Shown here one piece after another: positions 14,633 through 34,089 of a stretch of 64,000 nt of DNA. A program made the position numbers and the translations under genes. Origin of the DNA: a virus; the IMG/VR virus record IMGVR_UViG_3300025137_000026, positions 1 to 64,000 of that record. One strand, written 5' to 3'. Under the pieces are notes generated by a model. That model worked only from the letters and a program-made list of their open reading frames with translations. It ran no database searches and was not told the origin of the DNA. How positions within the stretch are numbered: the first letter of the stretch is position 1; the number at the start of each line of letters is the position of its first letter.

Positions 14633-17600
14633 ATGCCAAGTGTAGCCGTATCTAGTTATAGGGAGTTCTTAAGGAATAATGGACAGGTTGATAAAGCTGA
14701 TAATTATTCTGATGGTGACTTAGCTTTAGAGCTTAAGCAACAGATTGAGCAAAGAGGTTGGAACATAGAGGAGTTTGCAGCAGGTCGTGGTGACACCGAG
14801 CTTGTTCCTTTAATCAAGGAAGCCTATGGCGCAAATAAGACATACTCAGGTATTCTAGATGCCCCTGCACAGCAGTACTACACAAAGAAGCAAGGCTTCA
14901 AACAGGGTGCAGCAGCTGGATTAGGTGCTATCGGGATGGATGAAACTGAGCGTGACTTAATGAGGTCTGCTCAGAGGGATGCTAGAAAGGGAGCTAGGGC
15001 TGGAAGAGAGATATTCGATGATTACACATTGATCGATAGTTTTGAAGACTTACTTAAGTATGTCGGGCAAGGTGCTACTAGGTCTATTGTAGACATCGTT
15101 CCTTCTATGGTAACTGCCGTTGCGGGTAGGGGGGTAGGTTCAAAAATTCAAAAGACTTTAGAGAAGACGGATAAACTTTCAGACCTTAAAAAGAAAGCCG
15201 AGAAATATCTTGGTGAAGACTACGGAGCAAAGGCTGGAATGGGAGCAGGGGCATTGGGTTCTTCAGCATTGGAGAATACGGGTCATGTTTACGGTGACCT
15301 TTATGAGTACACCAAACTTGACCCGACAGATAAAGACTACTTGTCTCCGGCTGAGGCAAGAGCGTTATCAATGTTTGCAGGTGGTGTATCAGGCGCACTT
15401 GATTCGGCATTACCAGTATTCCTTTTAGGGAAACTAAGTAAGTCAATCGGCAAAGATGCAGCTCAACAAGAGGTGGGTAAGTTATTTAAGTCATTACCAG
15501 ATGGTATGGTATTTCTTGCACAAGGTGCAGGTGGTGAGGGTATAACTGAGGCACTACAAGAGGTGGTGCAGATGGCTACCGTTAAGTACCACACTGGAGA
15601 AGAGTGGAATCAGAAGGACTGGGAAAGGATGATCAATGGTGGTCTTCTTGGTGCAATTGGTGGTGGAACGGTTACAGCTGCGACTGGTGGGGTGGCAAGA
15701 TTACTCCAGCCTGGGCAACCGAATGAGGATGCAGAACTTTCAGATGCACCACTTGAGCAGAGTACTCAAGAGCGAATTGATATTCGCAATAGGTTCGAGG
15801 AGAAGAAGCTCAATAAGTTAACTGAAGAGGGATTAGGTACTTTAGTCACACAGCGTGGATCGAAGCGATCTGCCCGAGTTCTTTCTGTAGATAATAAGGC
15901 TAAGGTTGCTGTCGTTGAATATGCCAATGGTAACACTGAGAAGATTAATGTAACTGAGCTTACTATATTAGAGGGTAAGACTAAGTTAATTAAGCCCGAG
16001 GATTTAAAGGCTATGTCCGATGAAAGGCTTGAGGACTTGAAAGCTCTAAAGCCAGCAATGGTTCAGGACATTGAAGCTGAGCAAGAGTCTAGGAAAGAAG
16101 AGGTTGATGACGATACTATCCAAACACAGACCACACAGCTTGAAGTCAAAGCAACTAAAGATGGTCAGCTTATAGTAAATGATTTATCTAGTCGTGAGCG
16201 TGTATACTCTGCAACTTTTCGGGAAGAGGATGGAGTTCTTTATATCGAGAACGAGGCTGTAGATGCCCCTACTGACCAACGTAAGCAACAATCTCAAGAC
16301 ATACTTTATAGGCAAGCTAGGAAGAAGGCTCAGGATGAAGGGCTTATTTTAAGCTTGGGTGGCAAGGTTGAGTTCCCTGTCCCAAGTTTTGATGCAATGG
16401 ACTTTGGTGATATGTATACCGAATTTGCTAAAGCTATTCAGGTTATCAATTCTCTTGAAGATGGAAGTGATGCACAGAATGCTGTAGTAGATGCATACAG
16501 ACCATTAATGCAGAGAATGCATACTGAAGGCTTGCTTGAGACTGATGGCGGGGCATCGCATCGAATGCTTGATAGCGTTGAGACAAAGAAGAATAACAGT
16601 GCTTTTCTAAAGAATAATCCTGTGCTTGCAAGGACTCTAGGACATCAGATTTTTACTGATATTGAAGCGGAAATAGAAAACTATGTTGATACACTTTCGC
16701 AGGAGCAAATAAACGAGGGTCAAATACAGAAGGATGCAAAAGCAATTGCTGATTTATATGTTGAGGAAATAGATGGGCTAAGTACTACTGATGCCCTTAC
16801 TCTTGCAAGGGCTGCTACTAAGAAATTTGCCGAGCAACATCTTCAGGATGGTCAGTGGAAGACCGAGACTAATTTTGATATACAGACGAGAGAGGATGAG
16901 AAGAAGGCAGAGGAGAATAAAAGACTTCAGACTGCTAAAGATAACTTTGATGAACATGAGCCTGAGGTTGGTAAGTTTGTACGACTAGATAAGGATGATA
17001 AAACTAAGTTCGTCCGAATTACCTCAGTGGATCCTGATACTAATTCTTTTAAGACTGAGGAGACTGGAGACAATTCTGTTTCTGCCTCAGCGATCATCAA
17101 GATTGATACGAGAAGGGGGTTAAGGATCGGAGATTTTAATGCCATCCAAAAACAGGATGGTAGCATAACTACAAAGCTGACCGTATATGGTAATGATACT
17201 GAGAACAAAAAGGGTAGACAGGGAGTTGAGCTTTCAGTCACTGAGGATGGTAAGGTTACTCATGTCAAGTATGGCGAGAAGACTATTGCTATTGATGAGG
17301 ACAAGAACCTCACCTTGGAATCTGATAATTTAAAGTCTGAGATTGGGAATCTTGTACTCGAAGAAAAGAAAGTAAAAACTCCAAGAACCAAGACAATATT
17401 TATTGCTCCAGGTATTGCTAAGAAGGGTGACAAGATTCTCATAAAGCCAATTAAGATAGCAAAATCTAACGGAGCAAAGGGTGGTTTTGAAGTAAAGCCA
17501 TTGCTTGATACCAATGGAGAGGTGGAGGGCTTCACTGAGGGTGAGGATGTATTTGCATTTGATAAGCCAGTACAGCCATCTGAGTGGATAGAAGCTGCAC

Positions 17601-20600
17601 GTTCAAAGCTAGCAGGGGAGGGCAAATTCAAGACTATTCCCACTCTTACAGCGGAGGAAAAGAAAGCAAGGGCAGAGGCAGAAGCAAATCCTAGTAATGT
17701 TCTTTCTTTCTTTAGTCGGCAGAAGAAGAAGTTAATTCCTTCTACGGAAATAATTGAAATCCCTGAGGGTGGTATCAAGGATTTTGATACTGCAAATAAG
17801 TTTATCAATAGCATTGATCTTGGAAAATCAGGTTCCACAACATCCAAAAAAGCTTTAGTACTTAGGTATTTCAAGGAAGGTGAAACTGAGAATCCGGTCT
17901 ACCTTGTGAGAACTATAACTGCCCCCACCGATGCAGATGGTAATAAGGGTAGAACAATAGTAGGGATGACCACTCATGCTAGTGGCAAGAATAAGAGTAA
18001 AAGGAAGATAACACCCTTAAGTTCTACGAAAGGTGGACTTGATTTAACAGATGAGAACTTCCAGGAACACTTCGATGATGATACCGATCTAGCTAGGCTT
18101 GAGATAGTAGAACTCCTTTCCTTCAGTGAGGAAGCCCGAGTGGAAGCAAACTTTGAATCCGAAGAAGCTTACAAGCAAGCCATAGAGCAGACAACTGATT
18201 ACGAATTTATCCGATCCAAGACTACCAAAGAGGTACAAGACTTCGTTAAACAGGGTAGTGACCGAGCAAAGCGAATTGAGTCATTGGTCATGGACGGAGA
18301 TAAGTTCAATCCATTACTGAATATTTATGGCCCTGACATTAATGCTGGAGTATTAAGCGACCTCAAGAAGGATATAAAGGATAGAGCTAGTAAGTCATCC
18401 GATAAGGATATAAAGGAGCTTGGTAAGAAGATTTCAAAATCTGAGCAAATCAGAATCGTTGACTTAGATGCTTTTATTACCCACATACAAGTAGGTGATA
18501 AAGGTGAAGTTACCCATGGGTTAGATGTTCTGACTCCCAAGGAGGGATACTATAATCAAGTAAAGGAAGCCTTAGAGAATTACCGAACAAAAGATGGTAA
18601 GGTTCAGAAGAGCGAGTCTAAGAAGAAAGCTAGCGCACAAGGGGGGGCAACTAACGTAGATCAAGTTAGTGAAAGCGGTATGCAGGGAGAGTCATCCATT
18701 CAGGGTTTGAGTCCAGTAGATATTTTAGCCCTCAAGGAAAATATAGAATCGAGAGAGAAAGATGAGGAGGAGACACCTGAAGTAGAGGAAGAAGAACCAT
18801 GGCATGACCCCATGGACTTACAGCAAGATGGTAGAGTATTTTATCCGAATGGAGATAGAGCCGAAAGCCCTGTTCATAAAGTTAATATAAATGGAAAAGA
18901 TACTTATGTTACTTCGGTCATTGAGATGGATGGAAGTAAGACATGGTATAGGTATGGGGATAAAGATGGAAACAATGGTAAAGTATATGCTCCTGCTTCT
19001 GACTATCCAGTACAGGCAGGAACCAAAAAGGAACTCATTCAAGAATTAGAAAAGGAAGAAGCACCTGTTAAGGAATCTGATGAGCTTACAGATACAGAAA
19101 GATTATTTAAAGATGAATCTTTCAATCTTGATGGCTTAAGTAGTCCCGATTTTAAATCAAGTGATACTTCTGAGGGGTCAGCAACTAACGAAGTTAATGA
19201 AGAAGCAGTTGAATTCGCAGAGGGAATACTTACGGCAAAAGGAATCAGTGAAGCAGATAAAGAAAGGTTAAAAGATAAAATAGCACTACATAAAGATGGT
19301 GCAGGCGTAGATGGCAATTCTCTGTACGCTACTGCCATGGATGTTTTTAATAACACTGAATCTAATAAACTGCTAGAATCAGTAGGTGAAATTGCACATA
19401 CAGAAGCTGCCTTAGAGGGAGAAATCCAAAGACATATTGATGAGCCTAAGAACCCGAGGTTAAAGAAGAATCCATTATCGCAAGAACTTCAGCAAGAGAA
19501 TGAACAAGCCGTCACTGGATTCCTAGATGGCATGAAGGTGGATGGTGAGCCAGTTAGGTTATCAGCACTTATTAATAGAATGATTCAAGGCATGGACGGA
19601 TCAACTGAGTTGTCCGGCGCTATCCTTGATATGGCACAGACCTTACTTGCTCATCCATTTGCAAAGAAATTAAAGGTAGAGTTTAGATCCTGGGATAACT
19701 TTAAGCATGGTATTCAGAATGATGGTAATAATGGCAAACTTACCCGAGCTTATGTTCGAGGTGATACTATTGTTATGGGGCCATCTTTTAAGTTACAAGC
19801 TGACTCCGACCTTAATGCAATGGAATCATTACAGATTACATTTATGGAAGAGGTTGCCCACAGGGTTTTGGGTACTGCTGTAGAGGCTGGCATCCAAGCT
19901 AAGCGTAAGGGTAAGCTACCTCGAGGTGTGGCTAAGATTATGTCCCTAAAGCAAGCGACTAAGTTCTATGATGAGACTAAGGAACTCATGGACTGGTTGA
20001 GGACAAAAACCGATGGCAAATACTACCATGGACTATTGAATCAGCACGAGTTCTGGGCAAACTTTGCAACCAATCCCGAGTTTAGAAAGTTCTTGAATCA
20101 GCCTATGCCTCAACAGATGAGGCGTAAGTTTAACTCTAGGTTCGAGAGGGTAATAGATTGGATATTAGACTTAGCTAGTAAGTTATTTGATGTAGACTTT
20201 ACTCTGAATCGCACAGCATCCACTGAGATTCGTAAACGCTATCGTACGCTATTACGTACAAGTGATAAGATGGCAGCTAATGATATAGACTTAATGTCAC
20301 AGAGTCAGAATAAGCTTTATTACAGAGGTGACTCAGCTAACCGAACAGACTCAAATGGATTAATAGTTTTTACGGAAAATGAGTTTGATGCACAAGGATA
20401 TGCTGCTCAAGGGATGGCAGATGAGGATGCAAGTGATGTTGAGCTAGAAGAAATGGCTGATAAAGCAGAGGCTAATACTCAAGCATTCAATTTGAATGTG
20501 AAAAACACTTTGGATTTAACTAAGGGCGTAGAAGGATGGAAAGTACTGCAAAGTCTTGATGATAAAGGTGACCGTAATGTTGGTAATATTCTTAATAAGG

Positions 20601-23600
20601 GTTGGCAGTTAAATGCAGAAAATGTATCTAATATTAGGTATACATGGTGGAGCAATACGACATCTAGCTTCCAGGTTTTTTGGAAGGATGTTATTGTTCC
20701 CCAGCTTATCGAAAAGGGTTATGACTCAATAAAGTATAGAGATGACAACCATGATACTATAGGAATCTTTGACGCCGAGAATGCTACAGAGATTTCACCT
20801 GAGTTACAACAGATGGAATCGGCTGGCTCTATAGATGACTCTGCTAGTGTCGCACAGGGCACTCTCCGCGCTCACATGGCATCACTCAAGGACTTTGGCT
20901 CAGTAGTTAAGGGTGCATTAGCTGACCTAGGTGAAGGGCTAGCTATGACACCTGAGAGAATGAAGGAGTTTATAACTATTGAAGGTAGAACAACTCCTGA
21001 TGTTCTTGCTAAGATACTGGGTAAAAAAGCGAAAGTACTCGCAGAAGAGGCACAACAGCAACTCGCTGAGGCAACTAGTCCAGACATAAAAGCCCTAGTA
21101 GACACAGCAGAGAACATAAACGACTTAGAGACAAGAGCCAACAAAGACACAGGCGCACGTAACCTATATAACTTGTTAACAGGAGCAAAGGAATCAGTCC
21201 AAAAGTTATACAGCGAAATAAAGCATAGTAAGGACACAGCCTTAAAAACCATAGAAGAGAAGAAGGCTCGTATGGAAGCAATGACTAAGCCTAAGTCTAT
21301 GTTTGATGCCCAAAAGACTCAGGCAGTATTTGCAAATTACTTCAAGAAGGCACTTTTCAATAAAACAGAAAAAGGTGAGTACTCTAATGCCCAAGCCTTT
21401 GAGGTTGCAATGGGACTGAAGCCTACACCTATTACACTCCTTAGGGAACTTAAGATAAGCGAGCAGAAGTTATATGAGTTGATGGACAGACTAGCAGAGG
21501 CACAAGATGCCAAGGACTTTCTTGAGTTAAAGACAGCTAAAGAGATATTCGACCTAATGGATATCAAGGCAGCAGATGTTGGGATAAAGAACCCCGACCT
21601 CGACCAAGCTGTTCAAGCTGCAATAGCACTCATGCTAGGTAGTGATCAGAAGAATGATGTACCACGTAGTGCATTTACCGTTCGTATGAGGTTAGCCCCA
21701 GGGCGAATTGCTGGAACTTCAGTAGAAGAAGCTGTCCAACTTATTAAAGCTGCATCCATGGGGCGTCCAACACCTGATGTTAAGGACAAGTCAATGATGT
21801 CTATCCTTAAGAATGTTCGTAAGTTGAGAGAGGAGATAGACTCCATAGAGGATGACTTAAAGAAAACACTAGAGGAGGAGAAGGTAGCTGAGAAGTTTAT
21901 AGAAGCTTACAATGACCGGATTGATGACCTAGATGAGTATTTTGATAGTACTGCGCCAGTTGAAATACATGAGGGAGCTAAGTACGAGATTCTAAGAATG
22001 GATGGAAGTGGCAAGATGATCAGTGAGATGCTTACCTTTTCTTTAGGTAAAGGGGAAAGCTCTAATGAAGCCAAGATGATGGCAGCCCGAGCTTCTGAGT
22101 TATTTAAGATAATGGATACTCAGGAGTATAAGGATCAGTATGAAGGTAAAGCCAAGGATCGTTACTTCAAGCAACTTGCTAAGGAATTAAGAAAACCTAA
22201 CTTTGGAATCCAATACACTTCTTCACATGCTGGATTCTTACACGCAGCTGCATCTGCACTACAAGAGAGATTTGCTAGGCTTGGCCCTCCAGGTAAAGCT
22301 ATTGCCACGGTGCTAAATGAATACACTCGAGATTACCAATCAGAAGCAGGTAAAATATTTGGTCAGGGCAGGAGGGTTTCTCAGGCAATGCAAAGACTGC
22401 ATCGTGAGATGTCTGCTAGTCACGAGAACTTAAATCAATTCATGAAGGGTTTTGGATCGAAGTTGTTTGATTGGTTCAATGAACGACCCGACCTACAAGG
22501 ACAAGAAGAGTTAGCTATCAATAAGGTATGGAAGGAGCTTAAGGAATTAGACCCAACTAGGGAGTATACTGAGGATGGAAGAAAAGCTCTTCGTGCATAC
22601 CTTAAGCAATGGAGTATACAAAATGAGAACTTTCAAAGGCTCTATAAAAAGTACGATATTTCGGTCTTAGATGAAGATGTTGAAAGAGAAAGATTAGCAG
22701 GTGGTACTCCAGATGCACTCTATCGTAGATTTGTTGACCAAGGTGTATTCACAACACCTAGAAGGTTGAACATGGATAAGATAGGTGCAGTTGTTAAACT
22801 ACTTAAAGTTGATGTAGCAGATAACTTCCAGTTTGAGTCATCCTTATTTGAGGAAATCTTTGAGGGTATGGGAGAGGCTGAGCAAGAAGGGTCTGATGCG
22901 ACTGAGAGTTTTACCCAGTCAATGGGCAAGCTAATCGATACGGAGCTTTCAAATTTATTCTTCAAGCCTTTATTTATGGGCAAGTCAGCCCACACTACAC
23001 CCTTTAGCCTGACAGCAGACAAGGATGAAGGTAAGAGTGTGCGTATACTCCTCCCTGAGGAGCTAGAAAGGGCTTGGAGGAATGCCGAAGGTAAGAACCC
23101 TGGTATTAGGGTTGCCAATGCCATACTAAACCTTACTAAAAATCTACCTGATGCAGACCAAACCACTCTTAAGAGTTTACTTGGTCAATTCGCACATCGT
23201 GCAAACGCACTTATAAGTGCAGAGCAAGAAGCTCGTGATGAGCTAAGGGATATTAGTGAGGAAGTCAGTGGACTAACCACAATGATGCAAGGCTCAAGAA
23301 TGCACTCCTCGATTCACTCTCGTACATTATATAATATCCTCCCTGGGGAGTTCTTTGAATATGAGATGTATGATGAGACTTCTTCTGGTCAGTACCTTTC
23401 CAAGATTATGATGACTGCCAAGTTTGGTAGAAACGGAGAGAAGATTACAGGGAACTATCAAGCAATCCTAGATAACTACAGTGGGTCTTATCGCAAGTAT
23501 CGAGCCTACATGGGTGAACTTGGTATCCAGCCTAGAGAAGGAGCTATGCCAAGCAGAGGTAACAGGATTTGGAACAATAGCGTTAAGAAAAAGATGACTG

Positions 23601-25681
23601 CCCTCATGGCAAGCAAGGGTGAATCGATGAGCTTCGATCAACTCGACCTTGAGTCTAGAAATTACATTGATGCGAAGAATGCTATGGCTGCAGCAAGTGC
23701 TGCCTTTACTGCGAGAAGCTCAAATAACCAAGATATAGGTTTGGGGCTAGAGGTCTTGCGCACATTAGCATTTGGAATGGTAAATACAATGAAAGGTGCA
23801 TGGACAGGTACAATGTCTATCCCTGATATTGGAAAAGCACTTGGATTGAATGCCACAATGCTAAGAACGGTAGGTGGAGCTTATGTAAACCTTGCAAAAG
23901 AGATGGCTGGTAGCTTACTGGAAAGCTTTGGCATAGAGATGCTCAGAGCAGACAAGTATGCATCAGACTTGAACGATGTATTTAGTAGAGAAGCCGGAAT
24001 GTCCACTTTTAGTGAGAATATCACTGAGGTAGGGAAGGAGGGTAGCTTATCGGGTATGCAACTTGGACTTCGTAAGCTAAAGAACTCCGTAAATGCTATT
24101 TCTATGATTGGTGCAGGGCAAAGAAAGAAGACCAGTGGGAATTATGTCCCAGCATCCTTACTTACTCCCTTAACTGCACCCTTTACTTACCTTGCTCAAG
24201 CAACCAACAAGTCAATAGCCCTGTCTATGGCAAATACAATTGAGCGTTTTGTAATACAAGCTGCACACGCTCTAGATGCCAAGGGAGTTACCCTAGATAA
24301 CAACACTTTTGAGATAAAGCCAAGTGACTTAGGTTATGAGGATAGTAAACTAGATGGCTATATTTTTGGTAACATAGCTATGGTGGAGAAGCTCAATGAA
24401 AGACTTGTCTCAGAGGGTATGTCTATAACTCAGCTAGCTCAAGATTACAGAAGGCGGACTGCTAATGACCCTGATGCAAAAGCCTTAACCAGAGATGCAG
24501 TTTTAGCCTCTTACAATATAGCTATGTCTGAGGTAACTTATGATACTATGTCTGGTAAAGGTTCTTGGACACAGAGTGGTGGAGGTCAGTTCCTTTCCCC
24601 ACTCGTTGGATGGTCAGTTTCTTCTTATAACAAGAGTATCAATCAAATGAGAAATAAGGAGGGTAGGCTAGCAATGAGGGAAAGCATTAGGTATATGCTT
24701 TTGACTTCTGCATGGCTATTACCTGCTGGTATTGCTTTTACTCTCTTTACTGATTGGTGGGACGAGGAGATACTGGGTAAACCAAGCTCACTTCGCAAAG
24801 TACCTTACAAGGCTGGGCTTCCTATCATGGGATTACCTTTGGCTATGACTGACCCTAGGTTTGATGCAATCTCTTTGATGGAAAGGGCAGGTCGAGCAAA
24901 CAATATCATGGGTATAGCTCAAGAGTTTGTGTCACCCTTACTTATCGGGCAACTTGACCCATCATCAATGGCAGGTCGATTTGACCCGACTAGGAGAGTG
25001 CTAGCAATATCTACACTAATGAACACCGTTGGTGCAGCTACCAATTACTTGAATGCAATCAGGACCAGTAATAAGGAAGCTGATGATTTCGTGCCGGATT
25101 ACTCTACAGTTGTTAGACCATTAATGTATGCCATGGGATTGAATGCAGTTGTACAGAATGCACAGATGGCAACTCACTTAACCGATATAGAAGAACTTGA
25201 CCCGACTGGATTCCTTTCAACGGAGAGAAGAGTAGCCGATATAACAGGCATGAGGAACTCCCTCAGAACATACTCTAAAGTTATGGGCATGGAGATGCGC
25301 AAGGGTGGATTCATGACCTATACTGCCACTGCTATGGGTAATGCCCTTAAGCGAATGGAGCGGGCAGCATACGCAAATGATAAGGAAGAGTTTAAGGAGG
25401 CATATAGAAAGGCAGTATCTTTATCTGAGTCAGAAGACCCAAGGAAGGATGTTATAGATAAATTCAAGAGACGGCATCTTCGTCAGGGAATTACTCGTTA
25501 CGCTTTAACTGACCGTGACTTGCAGGCTATATTAAGTGTACTGAGTGACGGAAGAAGAGATAAGCTAACAGACTCTATGAGGAATCATGAATTTTACTTA
25601 AGAGGTATAGGGGGCAAGCCTACTGAGTCTAGAGGTAAAGCATCAAATTACTCAGAGGAACTGAGACGTCTCGCACTATGA
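14633..25681 (+). CDS. Giant polyvalent-type virion/ejection protein (3682 aa)
   Basis: One uninterrupted frame of 3682 codons. Hydrophobic Gly/Ala-rich segments near residues 145-170, 200-265 and 335-360 suggest membrane insertion. Around 1735-1830 there is a zincin-like segment: EEVAHRVLG, then QHEFWANFATNPEFRKFL, the pattern of metallopeptidase domains in phage polyvalent proteins, but the first His of HExxH is Glu, so activity is doubtful. Around 1895-2045, YYRGDS, GLIVFTENEFDAQGYA and KGYDSIKYRD match the polyvalent ADP-ribosyltransferase-like fold. The C-terminal 550 residues have amphipathic helices and a membrane-like stretch near 3350-3375 (SAWLLPAGIAFTLFTDWW), recalling large-polyvalent-protein C-terminal domains. 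Known polyvalent proteins are injected with the DNA; that role is inferred. A virion RNA polymerase was considered but no polymerase motif was found. Confidence 0.65.
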   Translation: MPSVAVSSYREFLRNNGQVDKADNYSDGDLALELKQQIEQRGWNIEEFAAGRGDTELVPLIKEAYGANKTYSGILDAPAQQYYTKKQGFKQGAAAGLGAIGMDETERDLMRSAQRDARKGARAGREIFDDYTLIDSFEDLLKYVGQGATRSIVDIVPSMVTAVAGRGVGSKIQKTLEKTDKLSDLKKKAEKYLGEDYGAKAGMGAGALGSSALENTGHVYGDLYEYTKLDPTDKDYLSPAEARALSMFAGGVSGALDSALPVFLLGKLSKSIGKDAAQQEVGKLFKSLPDGMVFLAQGAGGEGITEALQEVVQMATVKYHTGEEWNQKDWERMINGGLLGAIGGGTVTAATGGVARLLQPGQPNEDAELSDAPLEQSTQERIDIRNRFEEKKLNKLTEEGLGTLVTQRGSKRSARVLSVDNKAKVAVVEYANGNTEKINVTELTILEGKTKLIKPEDLKAMSDERLEDLKALKPAMVQDIEAEQESRKEEVDDDTIQTQTTQLEVKATKDGQLIVNDLSSRERVYSATFREEDGVLYIENEAVDAPTDQRKQQSQDILYRQARKKAQDEGLILSLGGKVEFPVPSFDAMDFGDMYTEFAKAIQVINSLEDGSDAQNAVVDAYRPLMQRMHTEGLLETDGGASHRMLDSVETKKNNSAFLKNNPVLARTLGHQIFTDIEAEIENYVDTLSQEQINEGQIQKDAKAIADLYVEEIDGLSTTDALTLARAATKKFAEQHLQDGQWKTETNFDIQTREDEKKAEENKRLQTAKDNFDEHEPEVGKFVRLDKDDKTKFVRITSVDPDTNSFKTEETGDNSVSASAIIKIDTRRGLRIGDFNAIQKQDGSITTKLTVYGNDTENKKGRQGVELSVTEDGKVTHVKYGEKTIAIDEDKNLTLESDNLKSEIGNLVLEEKKVKTPRTKTIFIAPGIAKKGDKILIKPIKIAKSNGAKGGFEVKPLLDTNGEVEGFTEGEDVFAFDKPVQPSEWIEAARSKLAGEGKFKTIPTLTAEEKKARAEAEANPSNVLSFFSRQKKKLIPSTEIIEIPEGGIKDFDTANKFINSIDLGKSGSTTSKKALVLRYFKEGETENPVYLVRTITAPTDADGNKGRTIVGMTTHASGKNKSKRKITPLSSTKGGLDLTDENFQEHFDDDTDLARLEIVELLSFSEEARVEANFESEEAYKQAIEQTTDYEFIRSKTTKEVQDFVKQGSDRAKRIESLVMDGDKFNPLLNIYGPDINAGVLSDLKKDIKDRASKSSDKDIKELGKKISKSEQIRIVDLDAFITHIQVGDKGEVTHGLDVLTPKEGYYNQVKEALENYRTKDGKVQKSESKKKASAQGGATNVDQVSESGMQGESSIQGLSPVDILALKENIESREKDEEETPEVEEEEPWHDPMDLQQDGRVFYPNGDRAESPVHKVNINGKDTYVTSVIEMDGSKTWYRYGDKDGNNGKVYAPASDYPVQAGTKKELIQELEKEEAPVKESDELTDTERLFKDESFNLDGLSSPDFKSSDTSEGSATNEVNEEAVEFAEGILTAKGISEADKERLKDKIALHKDGAGVDGNSLYATAMDVFNNTESNKLLESVGEIAHTEAALEGEIQRHIDEPKNPRLKKNPLSQELQQENEQAVTGFLDGMKVDGEPVRLSALINRMIQGMDGSTELSGAILDMAQTLLAHPFAKKLKVEFRSWDNFKHGIQNDGNNGKLTRAYVRGDTIVMGPSFKLQADSDLNAMESLQITFMEEVAHRVLGTAVEAGIQAKRKGKLPRGVAKIMSLKQATKFYDETKELMDWLRTKTDGKYYHGLLNQHEFWANFATNPEFRKFLNQPMPQQMRRKFNSRFERVIDWILDLASKLFDVDFTLNRTASTEIRKRYRTLLRTSDKMAANDIDLMSQSQNKLYYRGDSANRTDSNGLIVFTENEFDAQGYAAQGMADEDASDVELEEMADKAEANTQAFNLNVKNTLDLTKGVEGWKVLQSLDDKGDRNVGNILNKGWQLNAENVSNIRYTWWSNTTSSFQVFWKDVIVPQLIEKGYDSIKYRDDNHDTIGIFDAENATEISPELQQMESAGSIDDSASVAQGTLRAHMASLKDFGSVVKGALADLGEGLAMTPERMKEFITIEGRTTPDVLAKILGKKAKVLAEEAQQQLAEATSPDIKALVDTAENINDLETRANKDTGARNLYNLLTGAKESVQKLYSEIKHSKDTALKTIEEKKARMEAMTKPKSMFDAQKTQAVFANYFKKALFNKTEKGEYSNAQAFEVAMGLKPTPITLLRELKISEQKLYELMDRLAEAQDAKDFLELKTAKEIFDLMDIKAADVGIKNPDLDQAVQAAIALMLGSDQKNDVPRSAFTVRMRLAPGRIAGTSVEEAVQLIKAASMGRPTPDVKDKSMMSILKNVRKLREEIDSIEDDLKKTLEEEKVAEKFIEAYNDRIDDLDEYFDSTAPVEIHEGAKYEILRMDGSGKMISEMLTFSLGKGESSNEAKMMAARASELFKIMDTQEYKDQYEGKAKDRYFKQLAKELRKPNFGIQYTSSHAGFLHAAASALQERFARLGPPGKAIATVLNEYTRDYQSEAGKIFGQGRRVSQAMQRLHREMSASHENLNQFMKGFGSKLFDWFNERPDLQGQEELAINKVWKELKELDPTREYTEDGRKALRAYLKQWSIQNENFQRLYKKYDISVLDEDVERERLAGGTPDALYRRFVDQGVFTTPRRLNMDKIGAVVKLLKVDVADNFQFESSLFEEIFEGMGEAEQEGSDATESFTQSMGKLIDTELSNLFFKPLFMGKSAHTTPFSLTADKDEGKSVRILLPEELERAWRNAEGKNPGIRVANAILNLTKNLPDADQTTLKSLLGQFAHRANALISAEQEARDELRDISEEVSGLTTMMQGSRMHSSIHSRTLYNILPGEFFEYEMYDETSSGQYLSKIMMTAKFGRNGEKITGNYQAILDNYSGSYRKYRAYMGELGIQPREGAMPSRGNRIWNNSVKKKMTALMASKGESMSFDQLDLESRNYIDAKNAMAAASAAFTARSSNNQDIGLGLEVLRTLAFGMVNTMKGAWTGTMSIPDIGKALGLNATMLRTVGGAYVNLAKEMAGSLLESFGIEMLRADKYASDLNDVFSREAGMSTFSENITEVGKEGSLSGMQLGLRKLKNSVNAISMIGAGQRKKTSGNYVPASLLTPLTAPFTYLAQATNKSIALSMANTIERFVIQAAHALDAKGVTLDNNTFEIKPSDLGYEDSKLDGYIFGNIAMVEKLNERLVSEGMSITQLAQDYRRRTANDPDAKALTRDAVLASYNIAMSEVTYDTMSGKGSWTQSGGGQFLSPLVGWSVSSYNKSINQMRNKEGRLAMRESIRYMLLTSAWLLPAGIAFTLFTDWWDEEILGKPSSLRKVPYKAGLPIMGLPLAMTDPRFDAISLMERAGRANNIMGIAQEFVSPLLIGQLDPSSMAGRFDPTRRVLAISTLMNTVGAATNYLNAIRTSNKEADDFVPDYSTVVRPLMYAMGLNAVVQNAQMATHLTDIEELDPTGFLSTERRVADITGMRNSLRTYSKVMGMEMRKGGFMTYTATAMGNALKRMERAAYANDKEEFKEAYRKAVSLSESEDPRKDVIDKFKRRHLRQGITRYALTDRDLQAILSVLSDGRRDKLTDSMRNHEFYLRGIGGKPTESRGKASNYSEELRRLAL

Positions 25682-32438: not shown

Positions 32439-32461
32439 AGTTATTTTTATTTTTGGGTTAC
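32439..32461 (-). promoter_or_regulatory. GTAACCCAA start-proximal motif
   Basis: GTAACCCAA (32461-32453) then AATAACT directly before the ATG at 32438. It overlaps the last 4 bp of the methyltransferase gene. Confidence 0.5.
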
Positions 32462-34089
32462 ATTTTAATGAACTCTGCAAACAATATTCTGTATGCACGT
32501 TCAGCTTGGGCTGGCACTATGCCATTCCCTAAGAGTCTGAGTCTTGGGACTCGTAGAGCCATGATTTCGGGAGAAGCGTAGTATTCTTGTGGAGTCCTTG
32601 GATTTGCTCCACCCATGCCGGATTCAACTTGCCGTGTATATTGAGTCTCCCCAAGTTCCTCGCTAGTGATGCTTGATTGCTGTTCACTTCGCTCTTCGGA
32701 TTCTTGTTGTGATCGTACTGGGCTGGCGTCCCCCATTGTGGTAGACGAGCTAAGTCCCGACCCAGGCACTTCTGATTCGAGTCCGTTGCTGTCCTTGCTC
32801 CCTCCACATGATCCGATGCTTGTGGGGTTGCCCACTTCTCGGGATTCTCCATATGTTCCACTGCGTCCCTCAGTTTCGCTCCGTACTTCGTTCCGTTCTC
32901 CCTCGTTGCCGTGAAGCCCGTGTCCGTCATCTTCACATCCTTGGCTACTCCTCCTTCTACTAGTCCTGCTACCGTTGGTGTTGGGAACATTATCTCGGGA
33001 TTCATCTCGGGATTCACTACATCTTCCCTCAGATTCTTGCATCCTCCCTTCTTCTTGTTGCGAGCAAGTGCTTCCCCTGTCTTCGGTGGAAGTACATCCA
33101 TCGTGTTTGGGGTTGCCCATGCTTTGGCGGATGCTTCCTTCGATTGTTGAATAGCCGTCTCCGTTATCGCCACATGGCTGAGCATCTTCTGCTTCTGATT
33201 GCCCAACGGACGAGTTGCTTTCTCCTCCCCCGTGGTTGGAGTTGGCCAAGTCTTCTGATCCGATAGAGCTACTGCCGACAGACTTGGATTCTGTCTGTTC
33301 TTCTCCGACTCGGGAGTCCCATCCGTCTTCCCCGTCCTTGGGGTAGGCCATGATGACCCTTGGTTCTTCCCATCCGTGCTGAGCTTCCCCTGGACGTGAA
33401 GGCCATGTACCTGCTCGCCAAGGTTGCTCTTCCCCCGATCCGTCAAGCAAGCTCGGGAGTCTTGCTCCTTCGGTGTCCCCCACTGATCGTTCAGACTCAT
33501 CTGGGTTTGCGTTTCGGAAGAGCATGAAGACACGCTTACGTTGGTGAGGCGCGCCTTCTTCACTCGCGCTGACCACTGTGAACGCACCCTCGTAACCAAT
33601 TTCTTCCATTCGTCCCAAGACATATTTGAGTACGCTTGTGTTCTGCTCGCCACCGAACTTACAACTGATGATGCCCTCGACATTTTCGAGTGCGACCCAG
33701 TTGGGACGGCAAAGATCAACTCCGTTTGCAATGAAGGGGAAGAGGTGTCTTGGGTCTTCAGTTCCTTTCCGAATCCCTGACGATGAGAAGGGCTGGCAAG
33801 GGAAGCCCGCAGATAAGATGTCCACGCATCCACGGAACTTTCCGTATGGGAACTCTTTAACATCCGTAAAGACAGGAGCCTCAGCCAATTCACCCTCTTC
33901 AATCTTAGCAACCAAGTTCGCGCAAGCGTATCCTTCCCGTTCCACGTATGCGATTTCTCGCAAGTTTGGGAATATTCCTCTAAGTCCTCTGCCCATTCCT
34001 TCGTATCCCGAACACATAGAGAGGTGAGTAACGACGTTATTGGTAAGTATACCTTGTATTTGCTTTTCTTCATAGTTTTCATCATTCAT
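32458..34089 (-). CDS. DNA (cytosine-5) methyltransferase
   Basis: A 543-aa protein with C5-MTase motifs: I (HLSMCSGYEGMGRGL, 21-35), IV with catalytic Cys97 (SAGFPCQPFSSSG), VI (ALENVEGI, about 133), VIII (EEGAPHQRKRVFMLF, about 175), and a C-terminal IX/X (RLRLLGNGIVPAQAERAYRIL, about 515-535). Residues about 195-495, where the target-recognition region should be, are low-complexity Ser/Gly/Glu/Arg with recurring VGDT, LANS, MGNP, VGNP and MGDA units. This stretch is overprinted by a second gene in the +1 frame, which explains its odd composition. Likely methylates phage DNA against host restriction (family knowledge). Confidence 0.85.
   Translation of the reverse strand: MNDENYEEKQIQGILTNNVVTHLSMCSGYEGMGRGLRGIFPNLREIAYVEREGYACANLVAKIEEGELAEAPVFTDVKEFPYGKFRGCVDILSAGFPCQPFSSSGIRKGTEDPRHLFPFIANGVDLCRPNWVALENVEGIISCKFGGEQNTSVLKYVLGRMEEIGYEGAFTVVSASEEGAPHQRKRVFMLFRNANPDESERSVGDTEGARLPSLLDGSGEEQPWRAGTWPSRPGEAQHGWEEPRVIMAYPKDGEDGWDSRVGEEQTESKSVGSSSIGSEDLANSNHGGGESNSSVGQSEAEDAQPCGDNGDGYSTIEGSIRQSMGNPKHDGCTSTEDRGSTCSQQEEGRMQESEGRCSESRDESRDNVPNTNGSRTSRRRSSQGCEDDGHGLHGNEGERNEVRSETEGRSGTYGESREVGNPTSIGSCGGSKDSNGLESEVPGSGLSSSTTMGDASPVRSQQESEERSEQQSSITSEELGETQYTRQVESGMGGANPRTPQEYYASPEIMALRVPRLRLLGNGIVPAQAERAYRILFAEFIKM
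32529..33500 (-). CDS. Overprinted WPTP-repeat protein inside the methyltransferase gene
   Basis: A 323-aa frame on the same strand, wholly inside the methyltransferase gene. From the internal ATG (MSLNDQWGTPKEQDS) it carries seven units: WGTP (7), WPTP (51, 85), WATP (about 128), FPTP, WATP, WGTP, and ends with GKLNPAWVEQIQGL. WPTPxAxD repeats closing with LNPxWVEWLMG are a recognised protein type associated with phage and bacterial methyltransferases. Each unit lies exactly opposite a (V/L/M)(A/G)(N/D)(S/P/T) unit of the methyltransferase frame. Function unknown; possibly the second half of a split target-recognition module. No clear ribosome-binding site; expression unproven. Confidence 0.6.
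   Translation of the reverse strand: MSLNDQWGTPKEQDSRACLTDRGKSNLGEQVHGLHVQGKLSTDGKNQGSSWPTPRTGKTDGTPESEKNRQNPSLSAVALSDQKTWPTPTTGEEKATRPLGNQKQKMLSHVAITETAIQQSKEASAKAWATPNTMDVLPPKTGEALARNKKKGGCKNLREDVVNPEMNPEIMFPTPTVAGLVEGGVAKDVKMTDTGFTATRENGTKYGAKLRDAVEHMENPEKWATPQASDHVEGARTATDSNQKCLGRDLARLPQWGTPAQYDHNKNPKSEVNSNQASLARNLGRLNIHGKLNPAWVEQIQGLHKNTTLLPKSWLYESQDSDS

Follow-up and report, generated by a model that had tools for sequence, protein, structure and literature searches.

The locus and its features

The DNA analysed here, referred to as the window, is a stretch of 64,000 nucleotides from the IMG/VR virus record IMGVR_UViG_3300025137_000026. The contig is that of a tailed phage, with an integrase, a DnaB-like helicase and a large terminase. 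A single open reading frame of 3682 codons on the plus strand (14633-25681) takes up about 11 kb of the 77 kb contig. On the minus strand two frames remain open together for more than 1.5 kb, as had been noticed in an earlier reading of the letters alone (the sequence-only reading). The outer frame, alpha, is a predicted methyltransferase gene starting with an ATG at 34089; the inner frame, beta, is nested in it at +1, with an ATG at 34085, 4 nt after that of alpha. Their features are as follows.

32458..34089, minus strand: alpha, predicted C5-cytosine methyltransferase large subunit (motifs I-VIII, low-complexity linker, motif X)
33982..34026, minus strand: alpha motif I, HLSMCSGYEGMGRGL
33775..33807, minus strand: alpha motif IV, GFPCQPFSSSG, holding the catalytic Cys (aligned to M.HhaI)
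33670..33693, minus strand: alpha motif VI, ALENVEGI
33526..33546, minus strand: alpha motif VIII, HQRKRVF; here the substitution pattern turns from alpha-like to beta-like
32554..33531, minus strand: alpha low-complexity linker, overprinted by beta; 73% G/E/S/N/D/R/T/Q, position spectrum p1>p2>p3
32494..32538, minus strand: alpha motif X, RLLGNGIVPAQAERA, nearly all past the stop of beta
32529..34085, minus strand: beta, nested +1-frame ORF, 518 codons from ATG 34085 (cassette array and putative motif IX)
33351..33482, minus strand: beta cassette 1, WGTPKEQDSRA.., type F
33249..33350, minus strand: beta cassette 2, WPTPRTGKTDG..
33120..33248, minus strand: beta cassette 3, WPTPTTGEEKA..
32988..33119, minus strand: beta cassette 4, WATPNTMDVLPPKT.., type A (the commonest type)
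32835..32987, minus strand: beta cassette 5, FPTPTVAGLVEGG..GAKLRDAV
32736..32834, minus strand: beta cassette 6, WATPQASDHVEGA.., type J
32628..32735, minus strand: beta cassette 7, WGTPAQYDHNK..
32592..32627, minus strand: beta putative motif IX, LNPAWVEQIQGL, assigned by profile comparisons via single-chain forms

By its sequence alpha is a C5-cytosine methyltransferase, C5 methylation itself being predicted. It matched PF00145 at 2.9e-28 in the Pfam search, limited to aa 22-190, and phrog_363 at 9.1e-38 over aa 20-534 in the PHROGs search, and it aligned with M.HhaI at 7.1e-12. The catalytic-domain motifs I, IV, VI and VIII of the C5-cytosine DNA methyltransferases (PF00145) are all present. 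Motif VIII is followed by the linker of about 300-325 residues and then by motif X, which lies in the chain of alpha itself: the alpha tail was matched with Dcm at 1.1e-4, aligned at motif X only. The outer frame had been credited with all methyltransferase motifs; this holds for I-VIII and X but not for motif IX, which a pattern search found in none of 144 nested alphas.

The inner frame had been given 323 codons from an ATG at 33500, which is probably too late a start because the family of the window avoids beta-frame stops from the start of alpha onwards; the frame is open from ATG 34085 and probably has 518 codons. Its seven units (WGTP, WPTP, WPTP, WATP, FPTP, WATP, WGTP) correspond one to one, all at phase +1, with outer units in alpha (in order VGDT, MAYP, LANS, MGNP, VPNT, VGNP, MGDA), as the sequence-only reading had described. 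What they share is the phase and not an exact DNA repeat, since TGGCCAACTCC occurs exactly in only one of the seven, contrary to the proposed origin of both series from one DNA repeat. The terminal motif, given earlier as LNPxWVEQ, actually reads LNPAWVEQIQGL in the window.

Constraint on the inner frame

Substitutions were counted by alpha codon position in 33 pairs aligned on alpha, a choice that works against a beta-type pattern; each sequence was used once, and some related families were included, so that independence is incomplete. For positions 1, 2 and 3 the catalytic part gave 354:253:751 and the linker 1178:409:283, both patterns being seen in all 33 pairs; for the window against its relative L002 the counts were 3:1:16 and 104:36:25, respectively. 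As the first position of an alpha codon is the third of a beta codon, the conservation of the linker is that of beta. The inversion begins where motif VIII ends and reverts about 20 codons past the start of motif IX, at the stop of beta, and well upstream of motif VIII there is little beta-specific constraint. Within the linker, beta-nonsynonymous changes run at about 0.51 of neutral and beta-synonymous changes at 2.5 times neutral, while alpha-nonsynonymous changes are in excess and no clear constraint on alpha is seen except that of staying open. These rates bear out the earlier proposal of an outer linker dictated by the inner frame. The omega of beta is about 0.2, and its protein is conserved across phyla at about 30% identity.

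Stop codons give the same picture: synonymous shuffling of 67 non-redundant loci predicts 132 stops in the +1 frame of the linker and none is observed, so that the homologues leave the dual-coding reading unrefuted. Taken by itself the window departs only mildly from chance, with p of about 0.08-0.13 in synonymous shuffles of its linker and N-terminal part; with the homologues the signal becomes overwhelming. Beta is a real coding sequence and dual coding is firmly shown. It is one-sided in the linker: constraint in one frame only had been named as a sign against dual coding, and there it does act on beta only, alpha being just kept open. The alpha linker stays free of stops because motif X lies downstream.

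Initiation of the inner frame

Beta starts differently in two families, the window belonging to family A. In family B (47 non-redundant loci) the open frame of beta starts, at most loci, 94-105 codons upstream of the end of motif VIII, and an internal Shine-Dalgarno sequence with ATG stands at this start in 35 of the 47 loci, where 9.0 would be expected. In the region upstream, stops in the +1 frame number 198 against 199.7 expected, a clean negative control without avoidance. The GenBank entry of Paenibacillus phage Jacopo annotates both nested frames, in agreement with the family-B internal start. In family A the beta frame is open from the start of alpha (1 stop observed, 27.7 expected) and the two starts overlap or adjoin, as in the ATGTG of relatives of the window, where the ATG of beta and a GTG of alpha are combined. 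No Shine-Dalgarno sequence precedes the alpha or the beta start of the window.

Single chains, adjacent genes and motif IX

In the phages Rita, Daenerys and Jabberwocky the corresponding enzyme is a single chain in one frame, in the order motifs I-VIII, PTP repeats, motif IX, motif X, and more such single-chain loci were found in IMG/VR. In Upyo gp53, Heather gp36 and Peaches gp76, each the second of two adjacent genes, the repeats are followed by IX and X together. The repeats of the actinophages read LLPTP and are followed in the same frame by an LNPxWVE-like motif and then by motif X; several actinophages have just a short overlap between the two ORFs. A structure model made for one single-chain relative resembles M.HhaI (match at 1e-14) and is confident for most of the catalytic domain and for IX-X, but not for the array.

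These forms connect the end of beta with motif IX. The C-terminus of beta matches the single-chain motif IX at 2.4e-14, and the single-chain IX-X region matches that of Dcm at 1.4e-5, whereas nested beta compared directly with Dcm profiles gives a weak match (E 0.019), yet in register. On these profile comparisons the LNPxWVE motif of beta is homologous to motif IX, by an assignment that is transitive through the single-chain forms. The window has a divergent version, with IQGL where LMGxP is expected.

Two loci show mixed arrangements. In Gordonia phage Neville (L090, 1989-2852) IX and X lie in the frame of alpha and one PTP cassette is left in +1, perhaps as an intermediate or decayed form. 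In Mycobacterium phage Daenerys (L185, 532-2163) the array starts in the alpha-like frame (VADPEG..) and its later cassettes are in the PTP frame; it looks as though the frame had been changed by an indel inside the array.

Occurrence and phase among homologues

An IMG/VR search with the inner protein alone gave 80 loci, and a profile scan of bacterial genome contigs with the beta alignment gave another set of 80, attributed by record title to Paenibacillus, other Bacillota, Bacteroidetes, Pseudomonadota, Planctomycetes, Nitrospirales, Acidobacteria and Treponema. All resolvable loci found with beta (77 viral, 79 from genomes) have phase +1, so the phase relation of the window recurs throughout. 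At the IMG/VR loci neither cut off nor missed by the patterns, a methyltransferase frame one base back spans the overlap and the remaining frame is closed. An alpha-only search with the catalytic domain of one relative, made so that loci would not be selected through beta, showed beta nested at +1 in 79 of 79 untruncated loci.

A match to phrog_1008 was present in 24/398 genomes sampled (phylum of L154) and in 4/398 genomes sampled (phylum of L099). Of 37 loci from a PHROG-based genome survey, motif patterns resolved 21, all at +1; the other 16 were not classed by the patterns, and one of them, L346, shows the +1 overlap when its frames are read by eye. L154 had been scored by pattern as a single chain, which was ruled out, as its frames show the usual +1 overlap. 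On this sequence evidence, phages and prophages with the arrangement number in the hundreds and span many bacterial phyla. Five near-identical nested loci (L115-L119) lie on one chromosome, that of the Roseovarius MAG OX638333.1, which suggests repeated prophages.

A proposed two-subunit methyltransferase and the alternatives

In C5-methyltransferases motifs I-VIII and X form the large domain, and the recognition region and motif IX form the small one (PMC3404938). We propose, with a probability of roughly 0.86, that the product of the locus is a C5-cytosine DNA methyltransferase split into two subunits, each made from one of two fully overlapping frames of the same strand. Alpha would fold the catalytic AdoMet domain from motifs I-VIII and the C-terminal motif X, and beta would supply the missing small domain, with the cassette array at the position of target recognition, plus motif IX; beta is most likely the sequence-recognising half. 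The split would thus follow the structural domains. Alpha and beta would assemble into one enzyme that methylates the phage DNA, probably countering host restriction, and the alpha linker would be a mere shadow of the coding sequence of beta. Initiation of beta would take place beside the start of alpha in the family of the window, and at the internal Shine-Dalgarno sequence and ATG in the other large family. We infer complex formation, joint enzyme activity and the biological role of the pair from sequence. That two proteins may act as one methylation system, as suggested earlier, gains support from the single-chain and adjacent-gene relatives and from the complementary split of the motifs.

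Beta might instead be a distinct protein whose function is unrelated, such as anti-restriction or regulation, and which merely overprints the linker. Such a protein would fit the searches of beta against Pfam and NCBIfam, which returned nothing over threshold and no convincing match, and the AlphaFold model (62 homologues), which has low confidence (pTM 0.26) and in which no recognition-domain fold is seen. A phmmer search of the PDB gave no match to beta, and in the PHROGs search the beta of the window itself did not match phrog_1008. That family does, however, match beta in relatives and also the single-chain Rita in its C-terminal half; the single-chain phage enzymes hold the same repeats and the LNPxWVE-like motif between VIII and X; and the motif missing from alpha is exactly the one found in beta. 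We therefore regard an unrelated function as unlikely.

A ribosomal +1 frameshift after motif VIII, yielding one chain of I-VIII, array and IX, either alone or alongside alpha, is an improbable alternative. It would agree with the order of the DNA, which is the order of the single-chain enzymes, and with the brief ORF overlap of several actinophages. In the nested form, however, a single shift would lose motif X, which stays in the frame of alpha, and stop avoidance begins at the internal Shine-Dalgarno sequence and ATG in family B, or at the start of alpha in family A, as for independent initiation.

An untranslated inner frame, open by chance, composition or a DNA-level repeat, has a negligible probability and is already refuted for the family: the absence of stops in the window alone is just mildly improbable, but position-specific beta constraint in 33 of 33 pairs, stop avoidance, an omega of about 0.2, a protein of about 30% identity across phyla and conserved start signals in the homologues led us to reject it.

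Comparison with known systems

M.EcoHK31I and M.EaeI are two-subunit C5-methyltransferases; in the former, an alternative frame of the large-subunit gene encodes the small subunit. In M.EcoHK31I the large subunit comprises I-VIII and X, to which the predicted target-recognition region is also assigned, and motif IX is on a small second polypeptide (PMC3404938). By this published description of motif layout it is the closest precedent to the two-subunit enzyme proposed here, in which I-VIII and X would likewise be on the large subunit and motif IX, by the transitive assignment, on the small one. It differs in that the target-recognition position appears to lie in beta, with up to seven cassettes (the PTP array holds this position in the single chains), and in that the system of the window is fully nested, phage-borne and widespread. 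M.EcoHK31I itself was not identified in a plasmid search. In M.AquI, two polypeptides form one enzyme split in the variable region, with IX and X on the small subunit (PMC3404938); this layout is like that of Upyo and Heather and unlike the nested one of the window.

PHROG 1008, named 'DNA methyltransferase', and the nested CDS pairs of Paenibacillus larvae phages belong to the same beta family. With the ShiLan-type HNH insertion, too, a phage C5-methylase gene hides a second protein in another frame, where it is tolerated as a loop; the insertion is a homing element present in some phages only, whereas beta is non-HNH (no HNH endonuclease match in Pfam, PHROGs or NCBIfam) and a constant part of the locus. 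The open-access literature searched contained no description of this family or of its overlap as a split enzyme, an absence that is no proof.

Long same-strand overlapping genes in prokaryotes and phages are usually doubted. The present overlap covers 1.5 kb and has clean evolutionary evidence of second-frame coding and hundreds of relatives; since one chain, adjacent genes and nested genes form a natural series, the origin and upkeep of overprinting are directly testable.

Possible cassette exchange

In the multispecific Bacillus phage methyltransferases such as M.SPRI, a tandem series of recognition modules, each about 40 residues long, separates motifs VIII and IX. They are single chains in one frame, unlike nested alpha and beta, and the likeness would lie in the tandem layout of the modules. 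Beta arrays hold up to seven cassettes with a median of 43 residues. Cassette types were defined by greedy clustering, as single-linkage lumped the cassettes, and they recur in differing slots and orders among unrelated phages: type F is first in the window and third in L017 and L031, and type J is sixth in the window and second in L009 and L010.

We infer that the cassettes are DNA-recognition modules. More tentatively, beta could be an array of interchangeable recognition cassettes of about 40 residues, each with its own target and gained, lost or reordered by recombination, which would make the overprinted gene an evolvable multi-target methylation system. As all cassettes have the same phase to alpha, each exchange would then keep both frames.

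Annotation of relatives

For many methylases of phages and prophages the annotation covers just one half, and activity tests on alpha alone would wrongly score such enzymes as inactive. In many relatives only one of the two frames is annotated. In Acidovorax phage Alfacinha1 (L092, 2017-3150) the CDS deposited as 'cytosine-specific methyltransferase' corresponds to the beta frame, and the catalytic alpha is unannotated.
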